NCBI GenBank assembly: GCA_022538095.1
Contig: JAKYXN010000053.1
Location: 1-36,983 of the forward strand
Direction: 5' to 3'
Length of the DNA: 36,983 nt
Source of the DNA: Puniceicoccaceae bacterium K14
Lineage (GTDB): Bacteria; Verrucomicrobiota; Verrucomicrobiia; Opitutales; Opitutaceae
Shown: piece by piece, positions 10,271-17,603 of the stretch
Layout of the letters: the number at the start of each line of letters is the position of its first letter
How positions within the stretch are numbered: position 1 is the first letter of the stretch
Translations under genes and position numbers: made by a program
Notes under the pieces: generated by a model
Seen by the model: only the letters and a program-made list of their open reading frames with translations
The model's database searches: none
Told to the model about the DNA's origin: nothing

Positions 10271-11560
10271 ATGATTAGGAGGGATTTTTTAAAAACAGGG
10301 ATCGCCGCTGGGGCAGCAATGACTATTAGCGGAACGATACCGAAAACAAGTGCAGCTACTCAAATTGAGAGTTACAATCGCGAGGGCCAATCGCCCTCGC
10401 AAATAGCGCAAGACGAAGCCTTCTGGAAACGAGTCAGACGCGATTTTGGGCCAGCTCCTGATTTCGTAAACTTAGAATATGGATACTTTTGCCCCGCGAC
10501 ACTCGCAACCCTCGAAGAGGAAATCGCTGGAGGAAGAGAAATAAACTCTCGAGCATCTTTCTACATGCGACGAACCCGCACCCAAGACCTCGAAGATACT
10601 CGCACTGAACTAGCTAAACTTGCGGGAACATCACCAGAAGAACTCTGCATAACCCGAAATACAACAGAGTCACTCAATACCATCATACAAGGCATCGATA
10701 TGGATCCGGGCGATGAAATAGTCTACTCCAATCAAGACTATGGCAGCATGGTTCAAGCCATGAAGCAAAAGGCTAAACGCTTCGGTGTCGTATTAAAAGA
10801 AGTCTCCATCCCTCTCCACCCAAAGAGCGACGAGGAAATTGTCGCAGTATTTGAAAATGCGATAACAAATAAAACAAAACTTCTTCACGTCACCCACATG
10901 ATAAACCTTACGGGTCACGTTTTACCCGTTCGTAAGATTTGCGACATGGCGCACGCCCGTGAGGTCGAAGTCGTACTCGATTCAGCCCACGCCTTTTCCC
11001 ACATTGATTTCAAGATCTCCGAGCTAAACTGCGACTACTTAGGCACCAGCCTCCACAAGTGGACATGCTCACCCGTAGGTCTTGGGCTTCTCTATGTTAA
11101 AAAAGAAAAGATACCAAAAGTATGGGGACTTATGGGCGATGTTATTCGGCCCGAAGATGACATTCGAAAATTGGAGAGAATTGGAACACGCCCTTATAAT
11201 CATATGAGAGGGCTTCGAAACGCGATTCGCTACCACGATGCAATCGGCTCCAAAACCAAACAAGAACGACTCCGCTATTTGAATACTTATTGGACACAAC
11301 ATTTCCGAAATCACGACAGAGTCTACATTAACACACCAGTGGACCCAAATCGCCATGGAGCCATCGCGAATGTGGGCATCCGAGGTGTCGAACCACAAAA
11401 AATCGCAGAGTTTTTCTACAACAAATATTCTATACTCACAGTCGGAATTTCAGGCCACTCAATAGTAAAGGGCGTACGCGTCACACCTGGATTGCCAACT
11501 TCGCTTCGACACCTCCACCTCTTTATCGAAGCCGTCGAAGATGCAGCAAATACCCTTTAG
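10271..11560 (+). CDS. Tat-exported class V aminotransferase (isopenicillin-N-epimerase-like)
   Basis: A 429-residue PLP enzyme with a twin-arginine signal (MIRRDFLKTGIAAGAAMTIS, cleavage probably near TSA-A). The fold-type I class V motifs are present: the phosphate loop TRNTTESLN (about 128-136), DSAH (237-240) contacting the cofactor, and the catalytic Lys 263 in TSLHKW. The spacing and HKW motif match the cysteine-desulfurase / isopenicillin N epimerase family rather than NifS or SufS, which have a mobile Cys loop that I do not see. Tat export means PLP is bound before secretion. Substrate unknown. The start codon lies directly behind a terminator-like hairpin and has no Shine-Dalgarno; the twin-Arg codons AGGAGG lie just inside the gene. 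It converges on the RidA gene. Confidence 0.88.
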   Translation: MIRRDFLKTGIAAGAAMTISGTIPKTSAATQIESYNREGQSPSQIAQDEAFWKRVRRDFGPAPDFVNLEYGYFCPATLATLEEEIAGGREINSRASFYMRRTRTQDLEDTRTELAKLAGTSPEELCITRNTTESLNTIIQGIDMDPGDEIVYSNQDYGSMVQAMKQKAKRFGVVLKEVSIPLHPKSDEEIVAVFENAITNKTKLLHVTHMINLTGHVLPVRKICDMAHAREVEVVLDSAHAFSHIDFKISELNCDYLGTSLHKWTCSPVGLGLLYVKKEKIPKVWGLMGDVIRPEDDIRKLERIGTRPYNHMRGLRNAIRYHDAIGSKTKQERLRYLNTYWTQHFRNHDRVYINTPVDPNRHGAIANVGIRGVEPQKIAEFFYNKYSILTVGISGHSIVKGVRVTPGLPTSLRHLHLFIEAVEDAANTL

Positions 11561-12168: not shown

Positions 12169-13290
12169 TTATAAGATTATTTTCAATGCTTTATCGAGTT
12201 TCGCCATTTGATCAGGTCGCCCCATGCTGATTCGTAGAAAATTCTGCTCGTAATAGAATCGCGGACTAACCTTCACCCCAAATCCACCAAAGATGGCATC
12301 CGCTACTGCTTTGGAGTCTTTTTCGATAGGAACCAATACAAATGTCGTAACCGAGGGAATCGGTTCATACCCCTTTTCCTTCAATGAGCTAATCGTTTGA
12401 CTTCTCATTTCTGCAGTTCTCTCTCGTACGCTCTTCAGGTAATCCTGATCGTGATACGCTGCCAACGCTGCCTCCAGTGAAACATGGGAACACCCACATC
12501 CAATACCGGTAACATAATAATCACTCAATTCGGCAGCTAATTCCTTTTGACACACTGCATAGCCCACACGCATACCACCGAGACCGTACGCTTTCGAGAA
12601 AGTTCGAAGCACAATTACCGGCATTCCCTCACGCACGCATCTCATCATTGTCAGTTTGTCCACATCGCCCGCAAAATCCAAATAAGCTTCATCAATCAGA
12701 ATTGGGCACCGCTGAGACACACGCTTGCAAAACTCGTAAAGCTCCGAAGTTCCCGCCATCGTACCAACTGGATTTTCAGGATTACAAATATAGACAACCT
12801 GCGTTTCACTCGTAATTGCTTTTTCTATACCTTCTAAATCGATCCCGTGATTGCTAGTCCAAGGAATCTTAACATGCTCTATTCCAAATTTTTTAGCCCA
12901 CATCATAAGCGGGCCAAACGAAGGATCCGAACTCACAATATTACCGCCTCCCAGTCCAAAAACAGAGGATGCGCCCATAATAATATCCGAAGACCCGGCG
13001 CCTAAAATTACTTGATCCACCGATACGCCTTCATGTCGCGCAATCGTAGATTTCAGCCGAGCTTGTCCTCCCAATGGGTATTCTTGAGCATACTGGGAAC
13101 TATCCTTGATCGCTTTGACCGCTAAAGGCGAAGGACCAAATTGATTCTCGTTTATAGAAAGATTTGTGAAGCCATGAGAGCTCTCAAAACTCGCCTTTTC
13201 CGCAGAAGCCTCGTTACCAAAGGAAGCACGGGATAGGTACGTAGCGCCAATGGCGAGAGAGGAATTTTTAATCCAATCGCGTCGTTTCAT
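12169..13290 (-). CDS. Tat-exported HisC-like class I/II aminotransferase
   Basis: A 373-residue fold-type I PLP enzyme with a twin-arginine signal (MKRRDWIKNSSLAIGATYLS). The body resembles histidinol-phosphate aminotransferase: INENQFGPSP (substrate loop), YICNPENPVGT (about 167-177), DEAYLDF (200-206, D and Y contacting PLP), and the catalytic Lys 233 in TFSKAYGLGGMRVGY. The length of the mature part is normal. As an exported enzyme it is unlikely to make histidine; these Tat HisC-like proteins are of unknown substrate. It is followed three bases later by a secreted RidA, which could remove imine by-products. Divergent from the metal-cassette gene at 13448 across 157 bases that must hold both promoters. 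Confidence 0.88.
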   Translation of the reverse strand: MKRRDWIKNSSLAIGATYLSRASFGNEASAEKASFESSHGFTNLSINENQFGPSPLAVKAIKDSSQYAQEYPLGGQARLKSTIARHEGVSVDQVILGAGSSDIIMGASSVFGLGGGNIVSSDPSFGPLMMWAKKFGIEHVKIPWTSNHGIDLEGIEKAITSETQVVYICNPENPVGTMAGTSELYEFCKRVSQRCPILIDEAYLDFAGDVDKLTMMRCVREGMPVIVLRTFSKAYGLGGMRVGYAVCQKELAAELSDYYVTGIGCGCSHVSLEAALAAYHDQDYLKSVRERTAEMRSQTISSLKEKGYEPIPSVTTFVLVPIEKDSKAVADAIFGGFGVKVSPRFYYEQNFLRISMGRPDQMAKLDKALKIIL

Positions 13291-13447: not shown

Positions 13448-13858
13448 ATGACCTCAAAAAACACAGGAACCCAAAGATTGACGGCAGCCATCGCCATCAT
13501 CTCCATCGCTTTATCAAGCGGGCTTCTTGTTGTCATCATGCAGCTAATCGCATGGACAAGCATGTTCAGCGAGTACAGCCAAGTAGCTTCCTTTTCGGAC
13601 TCCCTCGAACTCACCTTCTCTGGAAATGAAATTTGTGGCATTTGTCTCGTCGCAGACGAAATCCAAGAGGATATGGACGAGACGCTTGACTCCTACCATG
13701 GCTCCAACACTCAGTTTTTGATTCCGCTTCCAAACGGAACGGCGCGAGTCAAAGCGCCCATGCATAGTCGAGCCCCCTACGCGGAAAGCTTTCAACATGC
13801 ACTCAAAGCTATCCCGCCTCCAAATAGTTCCCCGCCGCCTCGAGCCCTTCCGGCTTAA
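13448..13858 (+). CDS. Small CxxC membrane/periplasmic protein of a TonB-receptor cassette
   Basis: A 136-residue protein with one N-terminal membrane segment (residues 11-35) and a periplasmic remainder. The pattern of hydrophobic anchor, a WTSMFSEYSQ helix, ELTFSGNEICGIC (CxxC at 63-66), and a C-terminal proline tail (IPPPNSSPPPRALPA) matches a family of small proteins found ahead of TonB receptors in Verrucomicrobiota. I recognise the pattern but not a firm family name; it resembles DUF2946-type proteins linked to copper. The CxxC is a likely metal or thiol site. The TonB receptor gene follows 227 bases later. Two overlapping minus-strand frames lack such features and were rejected. Confidence 0.7.
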   Translation: MTSKNTGTQRLTAAIAIISIALSSGLLVVIMQLIAWTSMFSEYSQVASFSDSLELTFSGNEICGICLVADEIQEDMDETLDSYHGSNTQFLIPLPNGTARVKAPMHSRAPYAESFQHALKAIPPPNSSPPPRALPA

Positions 13859-14085
13859 CGACGGCATATTTACTAGGCAAACAAGACGAATTCCTGCGCT
13901 TTAACTGAAGCGAGGAACATCGCTTTTCCAATTCAGGCCACAATTCGAGCATGTAGTTACGCATGCCCTACGCTGTCGTTAAGGCCCTTACCTAAGGACT
14001 AATCAAGATCTATTACAAAAGATCACCAGAACTGCCATCTCTAGAGATCGCAGACGAAACGACACATATAAAAACGAATTTAAGC

Positions 14086-16359
14086 ATGAAACACATACTT
14101 TCCATAGGCGTCGCGGGCGCCTTTTATCTCGCATCAGCAGTCACCTCTACGGCCCAAGAATCCGTCGAATTAGAACCCTTTTCAGTCAAAGGCGACGACG
14201 GTCCTTTCATTGATACTCCGCTGGTAGGCAACACTTCTTTCGTCACATCGAGCGAACTGGAAAACATCAACGCAATTAACGTTGAAGACACCATAAAGTA
14301 CCTCCCCAATCTCAATATTCGCAAACGCTACATTGGAGACACCAACGGCGTTACTTCCATTCGAGGACAAAACACCTGGATGACCGGACGTTCTCTCGTC
14401 ACAGTTGATGGAATATTGCTCAGCAATTTTCTACAAACTCGGTGGTCCGGCTCACCTAGATGGTCCGCTGTCTCCGTAGACGAAGTCGAGTATGCAGAAA
14501 TTGAGTACGGCCCTTACTCAGCGTTTAAGAGTGGCAACTCCCTTGGCGGGTCAATCAACCTGGTCACACGAATGCCGCAAGAAAAAGAAGGAACGCTTAA
14601 ACTAAGCTATTTTTCTCAGGACTTTAGCTTATACGGCACAGATGATTCCTATGACGGATACAAGCTATTCGCATCCTACGCAGAACGTGTCGGAAAACTC
14701 AGCCTCTACGCCTTCTACAATCACTTAGAAAACGAAAGCCACCCCCAATCCTACGGTGATGCCACCGCTACCGAAGTCACCGACAGCGATGCTCCAATCG
14801 CAATCGGCACCTACTTTGACATCGACCCAGAAGGAAACAACCGAGCCATCTACAGTTCATATGGACCAGACGAACTCGAACACGATCAATTCAAACTCAA
14901 AGCCCGCTACGAACTCACCGAAGATATCCAAGTCCAATTTTCAGCTACGTATTGGAAAAACGACTCCGAGCAAACAGACAAAGACAGTTACATTACCGAC
15001 GAAGAAGGAAACACTCTTTGGTCTGGAACCTACCAAACAAATGGTTACGAATTCACCGTAAAAGGATCAGACTTCTCAGTAAACCAACGCCAACGCGAAG
15101 ACATCCTCGCTGGGCTCACCCTTGGAGGCACTCTCGCAGAAGATTGGGAATTCGATGTCACCCTCTCCTACTTCGATGTGATCAAAGACGAAAACCGCTC
15201 ATCTAGTCTCAATCCGCTCGACCCAGACTACGACGGCTCGGGCCGCGTCACCTGGTTTGACGACACTAGCTGGCTAACACTCGATGGCAAGATCGGCTCC
15301 AACCAATTCCTCGGAAATGAAAACATCAGCCTATTCGCAGGATATCATTTTTCAGACTACAGTTTAGATCTTCTCCAATCATCTTCCGACGATTGGGAAA
15401 ACGGGACTCGTGACGCCATCCAAAACAACAATGGGGGCGAGTCGCAAATGAACGCGGTTTTCATACAAGCCGGAGCTAAGTTAAACGAAAACTGGCGCCT
15501 AATCGCTGGCGGTCGCTATGAAAAATGGGAAACAAAAAATGGATACTTGCAAAATAGCACCGTAACGGAGTCGCTAGACGGCAGAGATCAATCAGAGTTT
15601 TCTCCAAAGCTCTCATTGGAGTACCAACCAAACGAAAGCTGGAAAGCGACACTCAACCTCGCAAAAGCTTACCGCTTTCCGCTCGTCCCTGAACTTTTTC
15701 AAGGACGAATCGGCAACAGCGGCTTAGAACGCAACAACCCTGATCTTTTACCCGAGGATTCAGAAAACGTAGAATTAAGCTTAACTCACTTAACTGAGAA
15801 TGGTCAGATTCGTTTCACTCTCTTCCACGATGAAGTAAAGGATGCTATATTCAATCTTCTCGATGTAACAAACTCGAGCAATACCTTCAGCTGGTTCCTC
15901 AACATAGACGAAGTCAAAACTGAAGGAATCGAATTCGTCTTCGATCAACGCGCCTTCCTCGTCGAAGCGCTCGATCTTCGTTTTAACGCAAGCTACACGG
16001 AATCGACGATCGAAAAAAACTCAGCGAACACGAGCTTCGAAGGGAACCTGTTCCCAAGAATCCCCAAGTGGCGTATCAATCTTCACGCTACATACAACTT
16101 AAGCGATAACTGGGACCTATCCCTCGGTGGCCGTCACCAGAGTCATAGTTTTAATAATCTGGAAAACGATGACTTTGGCAACAATTACGGCTCTATCAGC
16201 AAGTTTCTCGTTTTCGACACTCGTCTTAGCTATCGTTTTGGAGAAAACAAAAACTCCAGCGTTTCCCTCGGCATCGACAATCTTTTCGACGAGGAATACT
16301 ACGTATCGCACCCGTATCCACAACGCACATTCTTCGTTGAGAGTACGCTAAAATTTTGA
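14086..16359 (+). CDS. TonB-dependent outer-membrane receptor
   Basis: A 757-residue TonB-dependent receptor. A signal peptide (residues 1-23, ending STA-Q) is followed by a TonB-box-like ESVELEPFSV, then the plug domain (about 40-165): VEDTIKYLPNLNIRKRY, SIRGQNTWMTGRSLVTVDGI and YGPYSAFKSGNSLGGSINLVT. The beta barrel then runs to the terminal aromatic residue (STLKF), the assembly signal for BamA. The length is typical. Flanking genes (a CxxC protein upstream, a CxCC propeller downstream) point to a metal, possibly copper, or a metal complex as the ligand; sequence alone does not prove this. Transcription is probably shared with the propeller gene, whose ATG is 65 bases downstream. No riboswitch was recognised in the leader. 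Confidence 0.93.
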   Translation: MKHILSIGVAGAFYLASAVTSTAQESVELEPFSVKGDDGPFIDTPLVGNTSFVTSSELENINAINVEDTIKYLPNLNIRKRYIGDTNGVTSIRGQNTWMTGRSLVTVDGILLSNFLQTRWSGSPRWSAVSVDEVEYAEIEYGPYSAFKSGNSLGGSINLVTRMPQEKEGTLKLSYFSQDFSLYGTDDSYDGYKLFASYAERVGKLSLYAFYNHLENESHPQSYGDATATEVTDSDAPIAIGTYFDIDPEGNNRAIYSSYGPDELEHDQFKLKARYELTEDIQVQFSATYWKNDSEQTDKDSYITDEEGNTLWSGTYQTNGYEFTVKGSDFSVNQRQREDILAGLTLGGTLAEDWEFDVTLSYFDVIKDENRSSSLNPLDPDYDGSGRVTWFDDTSWLTLDGKIGSNQFLGNENISLFAGYHFSDYSLDLLQSSSDDWENGTRDAIQNNNGGESQMNAVFIQAGAKLNENWRLIAGGRYEKWETKNGYLQNSTVTESLDGRDQSEFSPKLSLEYQPNESWKATLNLAKAYRFPLVPELFQGRIGNSGLERNNPDLLPEDSENVELSLTHLTENGQIRFTLFHDEVKDAIFNLLDVTNSSNTFSWFLNIDEVKTEGIEFVFDQRAFLVEALDLRFNASYTESTIEKNSANTSFEGNLFPRIPKWRINLHATYNLSDNWDLSLGGRHQSHSFNNLENDDFGNNYGSISKFLVFDTRLSYRFGENKNSSVSLGIDNLFDEEYYVSHPYPQRTFFVESTLKF

Positions 16360-16424
16360 TCCAGGAAATCAATGGCGGGCAGCTCGTCTGCTCGCCCACT
16401 AATTTTCCACCAAGAATACAAATC

Positions 16425-17603
16425 ATGAAATATTTTTTCCCATTCCTTCTCCTCTTTAGCTCACATCTAAGCGCAGCCCTTCCCTGCTGCACAATCCCAG
16501 AAGACCCGTTTCCCTGGAACGAACAGATCCTAAGCCTCGATGTATACGTTCATCGCCAAACCATTCATATTCTAACATCTAGGTACGACGAAGCGTCCGC
16601 CCAAAATATAATCGAGTATCAGAACTCCAAAGACAGTGGAAAATCGTGGAGCAAATCAACGCGCGTTGACGAAGGGAAGCAAGTCCCCCATGCACGTGGT
16701 CGCGGAACCGACTTTCACCTCGCAGTCACAGATGAAGCAATCACAGCAGTATGGCTCACCAAAGGGACTGGTTTTGGCGAGAGAGGACCATTAGTCGCTG
16801 CACGCTCCACTGACGAAGGCAAAACATGGTCAACAATCCCTACGCCTGCAGATGACAGAACCAACGACGATCACGCCTTCATTGACGTGACAGCAACTCC
16901 CAACGGTGCATTCCACACCGTTTGGCTCGACACACGAAGCGGAGATGGCAAAGGCCTCTACCTCGCCACCTCGAACGACCATGGAGAGACATGGGAATCT
17001 AACGTTTCGATCGATTCCAAAACATGCGAATGCTGCTGGAACACTCTCAAGTCTGATTCCACTGGCGTTCTGTACGCGCTTTATCGCGACACAGAACCCC
17101 GGGACATGGCCCTAGCAAGATCAGTCGACAATGGTAAAACCTGGGACCGCCTTTCCTCGGTAGGTGCCTTTGACTGGCAGTTTATCGGCTGCCCGCATGC
17201 CGGAGGCGGACTCGCAATCGAAGATGCAAGCTCAGAAGCCATACTGCATGCACTTGTATGGACAGGCCAAGATGATCATGCTGGACTCCATTATCTTAAA
17301 GCAAACGCATCTGATCTAGACTGGTCATCCCCACTTCAACTAGGAAGCGATAACGCAAAAGCAGCCGACATAGCTATCAACGACTCTGATCAACTTCTAG
17401 CCACTTGGGTAGAAACAGATGCCAAAGGGTCCACATTAATGTATTCAACATCCAATAACCAAGGTGCTTTCTGGAGTTCTCCGCAAGTCATTGATACGCC
17501 CAACAGTTCACCAAGCCACCCTCGGGTTTTATCAATAGACGATGAGTTTCACCTATTTTGGACGTCTAACTACGGACTTAAACATCTTCAAGTGAGCAAT
17601 TAA
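16425..17603 (+). CDS. Secreted Asp-box (sialidase-like) propeller with CxCC motif
   Basis: A 392-residue secreted protein beginning at the ATG at 16425, which opens a signal peptide (MKYFFPFLLLFSSHLSA-A); a longer frame starting at 16356 overlaps the receptor gene and adds no signal. It has five Asp-box-type loops (SKDSGKSW, STDEGKTW, SNDHGETW, SVDNGKTW, SNNQGAFW), the mark of sialidase/BNR beta propellers. It lacks the Arg triad and Tyr/Glu of true sialidases that I can place. Instead it carries Cys pairs: CC right after the signal (residues 21-22), CECC (201-204), and GCPH (255-258). These suggest soft-metal binding. Together with the upstream receptor and CxxC protein it forms a likely metal-uptake or metal-handling cassette. 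It should be described as sialidase-like, not as a sialidase. Confidence 0.85.
   Translation: MKYFFPFLLLFSSHLSAALPCCTIPEDPFPWNEQILSLDVYVHRQTIHILTSRYDEASAQNIIEYQNSKDSGKSWSKSTRVDEGKQVPHARGRGTDFHLAVTDEAITAVWLTKGTGFGERGPLVAARSTDEGKTWSTIPTPADDRTNDDHAFIDVTATPNGAFHTVWLDTRSGDGKGLYLATSNDHGETWESNVSIDSKTCECCWNTLKSDSTGVLYALYRDTEPRDMALARSVDNGKTWDRLSSVGAFDWQFIGCPHAGGGLAIEDASSEAILHALVWTGQDDHAGLHYLKANASDLDWSSPLQLGSDNAKAADIAINDSDQLLATWVETDAKGSTLMYSTSNNQGAFWSSPQVIDTPNSSPSHPRVLSIDDEFHLFWTSNYGLKHLQVSN

Follow-up and report, generated by a model that had tools for sequence, protein, structure and literature searches.

Small exported open reading frames (ORFs) that stand first in copper operons are the closest described parallels to the locus reported here. 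CutF, encoded by the first gene of the copper operon cutFOG of Rhodobacter capsulatus, carries a Cys pair in mid-protein (CXXXC) and ends in P109EPEGPPPRL118; deletion of this C terminus or a change of the CXXXC lowers CutO activity by about 90% (PMC8456105), and copper is described as promoting the gene downstream of CutF, that is, as having an activating effect (PMC9973294). In Bordetella, CruR (DUF2946) is reported to sense copper by a CxxC during a stall of the ribosome on RAPP, 45 residues further on; copper turns off the TonB receptor behind it, and long gaps are typical in cruR operons (PMC9426467). Arrest on CruR has been demonstrated in vitro, and secretory leaders with RAPP or RGPP have been reported before TonB genes across Gram-negative bacteria (PMC12992588). 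The copper-controlled operon of Bordetella pertussis consists of CruR, the receptor BfrG/CrtA, and a PepSY_TM protein (PMC9426467, PMC12914433). Here, we analyze a cassette of three genes, encoding a small CxxC protein, a TonB-dependent receptor, and a beta-propeller, in a 36,983-nucleotide stretch of Puniceicoccaceae bacterium K14 (Verrucomicrobiota; contig JAKYXN010000053.1, C307 in our set, from an assembly of 5.7 Mb), the whole of which is called the window. The cassette is probably an operon for copper acquisition that is controlled by its leader and whose propeller would bind copper, copper being assigned as the metal from gene context.

Organization and recurrence of the cassette

The ORF list of the window confirmed three codirectional ORFs on the plus strand. 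Gene 1 (13448 to 13858, 136 amino acids) has an N-terminal hydrophobic stretch, a CxxC, and a PPPR-type C terminus, and a gap of 227 nucleotides (nt; 13859 to 14085) separates it from gene 2 (14086 to 16359, 757 amino acids), a TonB-dependent receptor with a plug and a barrel. Gene 3 is listed from TTG 16356 to 17603, but ATG 16425 is more likely its start, because the hydrophobic leader read from the sequence begins there; the resulting gene (16425 to 17603) encodes a beta-propeller of 392 amino acids that is probably exported. A first-pass annotation of this DNA had named a CGIC protein, a TonB receptor, and a propeller in this order, and all three lie where it placed them; the PPPR tail of gene 1 and the recurrence of the three genes had escaped it.

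The same three-gene set recurs in related genomes. The propeller occurs in 75 of 150 genomes of the window's bacterial family at an E value of 1e-10. Linkage was counted over 82 places with propeller matches at E <1e-29, after 23 of 105 rows (E >1e-24) had been dropped. Thirty-six of these places, in 33 genomes, lie 0 to 8 kb behind a same-strand leader, one has a leader within 8 kb in another arrangement, and 45 have no leader that near. The 35 linked places besides the window's fall into 34 regions, 31 of which read leader, one or two TonB receptors, propeller, the other three having leader and propeller; CxCC and CP are present in all 35 propellers, and a PPR tail is present in all 35 leaders. 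Two genomes outside the bacterial family (G260 and G119) show the same order of leader, receptor, and propeller, and one locus (L013) has the order leader, propeller, receptor. At another (L196, G492:C19), two leader-receptor modules follow one another, and a CxCC propeller closes the second.

The leader family

Gene 1, which the first-pass annotation had taken for a simple anchor, looks instead like a leader ORF of the CutF/CruR type. A hydrophobic stretch, judged by eye, spans residues 12 to 36. The CGIC at residues 63 to 66 (13634 to 13645) is a candidate copper site on the nascent chain, and the proline-rich C terminus PPPNSSPPPRALPA (residues 123 to 136, 13814 to 13855), whose codons are C-rich too, is a candidate arrest sequence. 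Like CutF, gene 1 is a small, putatively exported ORF at the head of a putative copper operon, with a Cys pair in the middle and a PPPR end (PMC8456105, PMC9973294); its tail, SSPPPRALPA, has the same PPPR. It shares with CutF-like proteins, as delimited in PMC9973294, a length below 150 amino acids (136), a PP tail, and a following gap (227 nt). It differs from CutF in having CxxC rather than CxxxC, a spacing about 20 residues longer, and, behind that gap, a TonB receptor where CutF has a multicopper oxidase. The CruR operon is alike in its CxxC leader, long gap, TonB receptor, and third gene, and differs in having RAPP where PPPR stands here, a spacing of 45 rather than about 62 residues, and a PepSY_TM membrane protein in the place of the propeller. 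The RAPP/RGPP arrest peptides that precede TonB and copper genes are likewise small secretory leaders and carry a proline motif at the C terminus; that survey covers RAPP/RGPP motifs, which are found in none of the 84 leaders aligned here (PMC12992588).

A profile built from six small ORFs at propeller loci matched in 119 of the 150 genomes of the bacterial family and in 97 of 387 genomes of the phylum. The leader alignment holds 84 members, the window's included, after 7 of 90 references (L056, L077, L084, L096, L098, L100, and L102) were dropped as read-through, broken, overlong, or near-duplicate. Its only invariant columns are Q32, M39, T56, C63, C66, and P131; the CxxC is thus present in all 84, and in all 84 the last Cys of this motif lies 63 to 78 residues from the C terminus. 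The end of the protein is PPxPPPR-like, with PPR in the final 12 residues of 71 of the 84 and a PP-type tail in 81; gene 1 of the window ends in PNSSPPPRALPA. Among top matches and seeds, PPR falls in the last 12 residues at 44 of 52 loci, against 5 of 476 background ORFs of similar size from the same loci, a count that is biased because the profile includes the tail; the less biased figure is 33 of 40 additional, mostly lower-scoring leader loci. The ratio of nonsynonymous to synonymous substitution rates (dN/dS) over 103 nonindependent pairs is 0.40 overall, with 0.30 up to the CxxC, 0.51 in the linker, and 0.26 in the tail, so that the linker is the least conserved part despite its narrow length range. 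From this pattern and the narrow range of spacing, the ORF is very probably translated, and selection very probably keeps both motifs and the distance between them. None of the Pfam and NCBIfam models describes the family (84 members; a few single-member matches at E 0.01 to 0.05).

Membership of gene 1 in DUF2946 was ruled out for want of a Pfam match or profile kinship: none of the 84 leaders matches PF11162 at E 0.05. A single RAPY occurs at residues 108 to 111 of the window's protein, in a column that is not conserved. DUF2946 proper is found in 7 of 145 genomes of the phylum, 5 of them above the cutoff, and not in the window's own genome; two of the seven matches (L141 and L146) were dropped before the comparison. 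The signature of a candidate Rho site, a C-rich stretch at the tail, is clear in the window (a C/G ratio of 2.93 in the 78 nt from 13773) and weak across the family.

The ORFs behind the leaders were scanned for 84 of 85 references, one (L013, a propeller) being dropped. They include 46 with a TonB plug, 6 with Phenol_MetA_deg, 4 with a cytochrome c domain, 1 NosL, and 1 CusF, numbers that are lower bounds because some of the ORFs picked (the longest within 600 nt) are in the wrong frame. Thirteen of the 84 match TIGR01778, the model of TonB-copper receptors, at 1e-30, and four full-length receptors, chosen for their OprC-like look, score 680 to 737 bits against a cutoff of 472.

This variety bears on a reading of gene 1 as a stable, membrane-anchored copper chaperone that feeds the propeller or the receptor and uses its proline tail as a docking motif. 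CutF itself was initially read in this way (PMC8456105), and a CxxC next to a hydrophobic stretch fits such a role, but the leaders stand ahead of genes of differing kinds, and the distance from CxxC to the end keeps to a narrow range despite the poorly conserved linker. Moreover, CruR is reported as unseen in proteomics and CutF as undetectable (PMC9426467, PMC9973294). We regard a chaperone as unlikely.

Several further loci add to the range of partners. A second leader in the window's genome (L139, G000:C339, 1111 to 1584) has CGGC and the tail RPPPPRTELV and heads a 362-amino-acid protein (1756 to 2844) in which Met, Asp, and His are dense (MDMDMQM, EMDMSSDMSMDM) and which is possibly copper binding. 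Proteins with DSHAPI/DDHAPI...GDH follow leaders in L127, L129, and L138, with a similar one in L075, and in L112, L119, L121, and L122 the leader precedes a Met-rich, probably exported protein with PMQGGMxMPM. Elsewhere (L101, L102, L114, L116, and L067), leaders stand, by eye, before cytochrome c and SCO-like, pseudopilin and PepSY-like, receptor and PepSY-like, and NosL-like genes; such partners would link the leader family to copper enzyme assembly.

The TonB-dependent receptor

The receptor matches the Pfam Plug (1.1e-10) and TonB barrel (9.4e-49) domains and contains no Cys and four Met. It scores below every curated NCBIfam cutoff, that for vitamin B12 included, and no receptor clade known for sugars or vitamins, which would have spoken against the metal role given in the first-pass annotation, was seen for it. 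Against TIGR01778 it reaches 43.7 bits (cutoff, 472.45), a score that rules out OprC membership. A search of the PDB with this receptor alone returned nothing at 1e-5. Its seven best matches among 45 receptors all sit directly behind leaders; since most of the 45 had been picked for that position, this tells only that the type recurs there.

The linked set comprises 36 receptors, 35 from the linked regions and the window's, a second receptor at one locus (L047) having been dropped from 37. Ten of them match TIGR01778 at 1e-60, and in related genomes OprC-type receptors thus stand between a leader of this family and the propeller, unlike the window's own receptor, which is of another type. A profile of all 36 gives a PDB list headed by OprC and then CrtA, a leaning due to the ten TIGR01778-matching members. 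CrtA of Bordetella is reported to import chelated copper without conserved Cys and Met (PMC12914433), and their absence from the window's receptor is therefore no objection to copper as its cargo, which we infer.

The scores also bear on a cassette for iron, heme, or another metal chelate, in which the Cys sites of the propeller would be structural. The best models for the window's receptor, both below cutoff, are hemoglobin/transferrin (143 bits) and siderophore (135 bits), and 9 of the 36 linked receptors match the siderophore model at 1e-60. The copper company of both the leader and the propeller families stands against such a cargo, and we find this account quite unlikely.

The propeller

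Gene 3 matches Pfam BNR_2 (4.1e-13) and has Asp-box repeats. Its CECC (C201, C203, and C204; 17025 to 17036) and CPH (C256, P257, and H258; 17190 to 17198) were examined in 20 aligned propellers from Verrucomicrobiota and Pseudomonadota, the window included; three others (L035, L040, and L150) were left out, and all carry CxCC too. All four Cys and P257 are invariant in the 20. The first-pass annotation had singled out CECC and GCPH as a Cys and His pattern; the Cys part holds, and His258 as an invariant ligand was ruled out, the position being Val in roseobacter relatives and Met in those of Bacteroidota. CxCC is kept in all 14 plasmid relatives read (Pseudomonadota and Bacteroidota) and in every weaker relative examined (8 ORFs; L024 and L035), and W...CP is kept in 13 of the 14, the exception being short and beside a transposase gene. 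One locus (L009/L041, G362) has three CxCC propellers, of which two follow a TonB receptor in tandem; it also holds, by eye, a large CobN-like protein and one that is kelch-like, and a 174-amino-acid Cys-rich membrane-type ORF without the leader's tail lies upstream of the receptor.

The predicted structure has a predicted local distance difference test (pLDDT) score of 85.4 and a predicted template modeling (pTM) score of 0.85, with a pLDDT of 65 for the block around residue 256. In this model, strand 207-210 is preceded by a loop that holds CxCC, and C256 belongs to the loop 247-261, which leads into strand 262-266. The two seem to be neighboring interblade loops, so that the Cys sites are probably on one face of the propeller.

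The sialidase-like fold assigned in the first-pass annotation has divided support. Foldseek ranks sialidases of family GH33 first (E 1.3e-13 to that of P. gingivalis), whereas the top rows by VIA-align Z are CylK and PLL lectins, with no sialidase among the matches listed, which does not exclude sialidases. GH33 sialidases are six-bladed, have an Arg triad in the active site, and require a catalytic Tyr/Glu pair; CylK and PLL lectins are seven-bladed. Neither Tyr nor Glu occupies any column that is invariant, or nearly so, in the 20 aligned propellers, and where the closest 11 have the nearly invariant Tyr180 and Tyr289, the window has Leu and His. The invariant residues include D96, D169, R171, R221, and D227. 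The protein thus resembles GH33 sialidases and BNR proteins in its Asp-box propeller and Foldseek match and departs from them in the missing Tyr/Glu, the CxCC...CP cluster, and a VIA-align Z that is higher for CylK and PLL lectins. Sialidase function was rejected for want of Tyr/Glu, which by comparison supports the doubt already voiced in the first-pass annotation and leaves the database label "sialidase" unsupported. A glycan-use locus, with a sugar receptor and a secreted sialidase, would account for the Asp-box repeats and the Foldseek ranking, but not for the invariant Cys cluster, and the annotation of the 14 plasmid loci read names no gene for glycan use, peptidoglycan genes apart; it is highly improbable.

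Those 14 loci, in Pseudomonadota and Bacteroidota, were read from 66 plasmid records that matched the propeller. Annotated copper genes lie near the propeller in 13 of them, a count that does not represent 13 independent events, since the roseobacter loci are related, and that stands without a base rate for copper genes on such plasmids. A Methylomagnum plasmid (L039) has a CopC gene next to its CxCC propeller, a Roseobacter plasmid has CopC, CopD, and a multicopper oxidase, and one of Pseudosulfitobacter has CusA and a P-type ATPase. Adhaeribacter has a copper P-type ATPase, and Runella has a multicopper oxidase; annotated copper genes are also found in loci of Sulfitobacter (two), Marinovum, Phaeobacter, Roseovarius (two), Leisingera, and Roseivivax. 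In Spirosoma, no gene is named copper, and DUF326 is nearby. At the Methylomagnum locus (L039, 289 to 3100 and 7914 to 9472), the propeller and CopC genes lie about 5 kb from amoCAB, the genes of a copper enzyme.

This company makes it likely that the propeller serves resistance in other bacteria. The same has to be considered for the window, as copper defense rather than uptake: the propeller would sequester or pass on excess periplasmic copper, and a CutF-type leader would let copper induce the operon. Such a role agrees with the plasmid relatives beside multicopper oxidases, CopC/CopD, CusA, and P-type ATPases and with a leader tail that matches that of CutF, whose copper response is described as activating (PMC8456105, PMC9973294). 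It does not sit well with the TonB receptor that is the middle gene both of the window's cassette and of 31 of the 34 linked regions, or with the 10 of 36 receptors that match the copper-receptor model, and defense is unlikely here.

Neighboring genes and hairpins

The cassette is flanked upstream by a minus-strand aminotransferase and YjgF pair and downstream by a TetR and OsmC pair, neither with an evident tie to copper. Two pyridoxal phosphate aminotransferases (10271 to 11560 and 12169 to 13290), with Tat-like N termini by eye, adjoin it; one is weakly PvdN-like and the other HisC/PtaA-like, both under curated cutoffs, and that they tailor a ligand is only a thought. Between the receptor stop and the propeller start lies a GC-rich hairpin of 9 bp (16374 to 16396, plus strand), a possible internal attenuator that might set the ratio of receptor to propeller protein. 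When the region was folded and scanned for terminators, hairpins were not above chance (6 found and 5.2 expected).

Discussion

Comparison of genomes gives the gene set, its conservation, both motifs, their spacing, selection on the leader protein, and the association of both leader and propeller families with copper genes, and it is through this gene context that it upholds the choice of copper made in the first-pass annotation. For a leader-controlled copper-acquisition operon, the following course can be proposed. The hydrophobic N terminus of gene 1 would bring the nascent chain to the membrane, and the ribosome would slow or halt on the PPPR tail. At that point the CxxC, which precedes the stall site by about 65 residues, would probably be past the translocon in the periplasm and would bind Cu(I), the putative sensed ligand. 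Given about 30 residues in the ribosome tunnel and 17 across the membrane (PMC9973294), the longer spacing would place the CxxC outside the translocon at arrest. Cu(I) on this site would alter the dwell time of the ribosome and thereby decide expression of the receptor and the propeller. Copper is expected to turn both off, as with CruR, because the second gene is an uptake receptor; CutF works oppositely, and the effect may have either sign, since the tail is that of CutF and the cargo gene that of CruR. The receptor would carry a copper complex across the outer membrane, and the propeller, with its four invariant Cys in two neighboring loops, would serve as a periplasmic metal acceptor, in the slot held by PepSY_TM in Bordetella.

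Several observations weigh against a leader-controlled copper-acquisition operon. The RAPP/RGPP tail is absent from all 84 leaders, the distance between their CxxC and the tail exceeds that in CruR or CutF by about 20 residues, and comparison with the DUF2946 profile gives an hhalign probability of 1.8%, with only the CxxC in common. At the nucleotide level, the C/G ratio at the tail exceeds 1.5 in only 42 of the 84. Several leaders head genes without an evident copper role, and an N_methyl pseudopilin motif occurs in 4 of the 84 ORFs behind them. The window's receptor falls outside the OprC type, and no PDB chain is matched at 1e-8 by a profile built from its closest group. The invariant Arg and Asp of the propeller could belong to the active site of an enzyme and not to a metal site. 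Finally, besides the relatedness and the missing base rate behind the plasmid count, the copper genes in question are resistance genes, a company that fits detoxification as well as uptake.

Leader-controlled copper operons are already known as a kind. In the open-licence PMC papers searched, no description was found of the PPPR leader family, its spread in the phylum, or the CxCC propeller as its partner, and no paper was found that joins a sialidase family protein to copper resistance or a BNR repeat to TonB-dependent copper uptake. Tentatively, we propose two things together. Copper-sensing arrest peptides with a PPPR tail would be widespread in Verrucomicrobiota, with a CxxC about 65 residues from the stall site and outside the translocon, reading periplasmic copper during their own export. 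The propellers would form a new class of periplasmic copper proteins with a CxCC and CP thiolate site, present in Verrucomicrobiota, Pseudomonadota, and Bacteroidota, serving uptake or resistance, and hidden under the name "sialidase family protein."

Both TonB-dependent copper uptake and copper sensing by nascent chains are recent findings, mainly from a few Proteobacteria. If the proposal is true, leader-controlled copper operons would be common in a group for which the literature searched holds no description of the PPPR type. The leader family is a natural set with near-fixed spacing and a different tail, which lets the place of sensing be probed, be it the tunnel, the translocon, or the periplasm. 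Likewise, if it is true, a family misannotated as "sialidase" would become a family of copper proteins and the third-gene counterpart of PepSY_TM.

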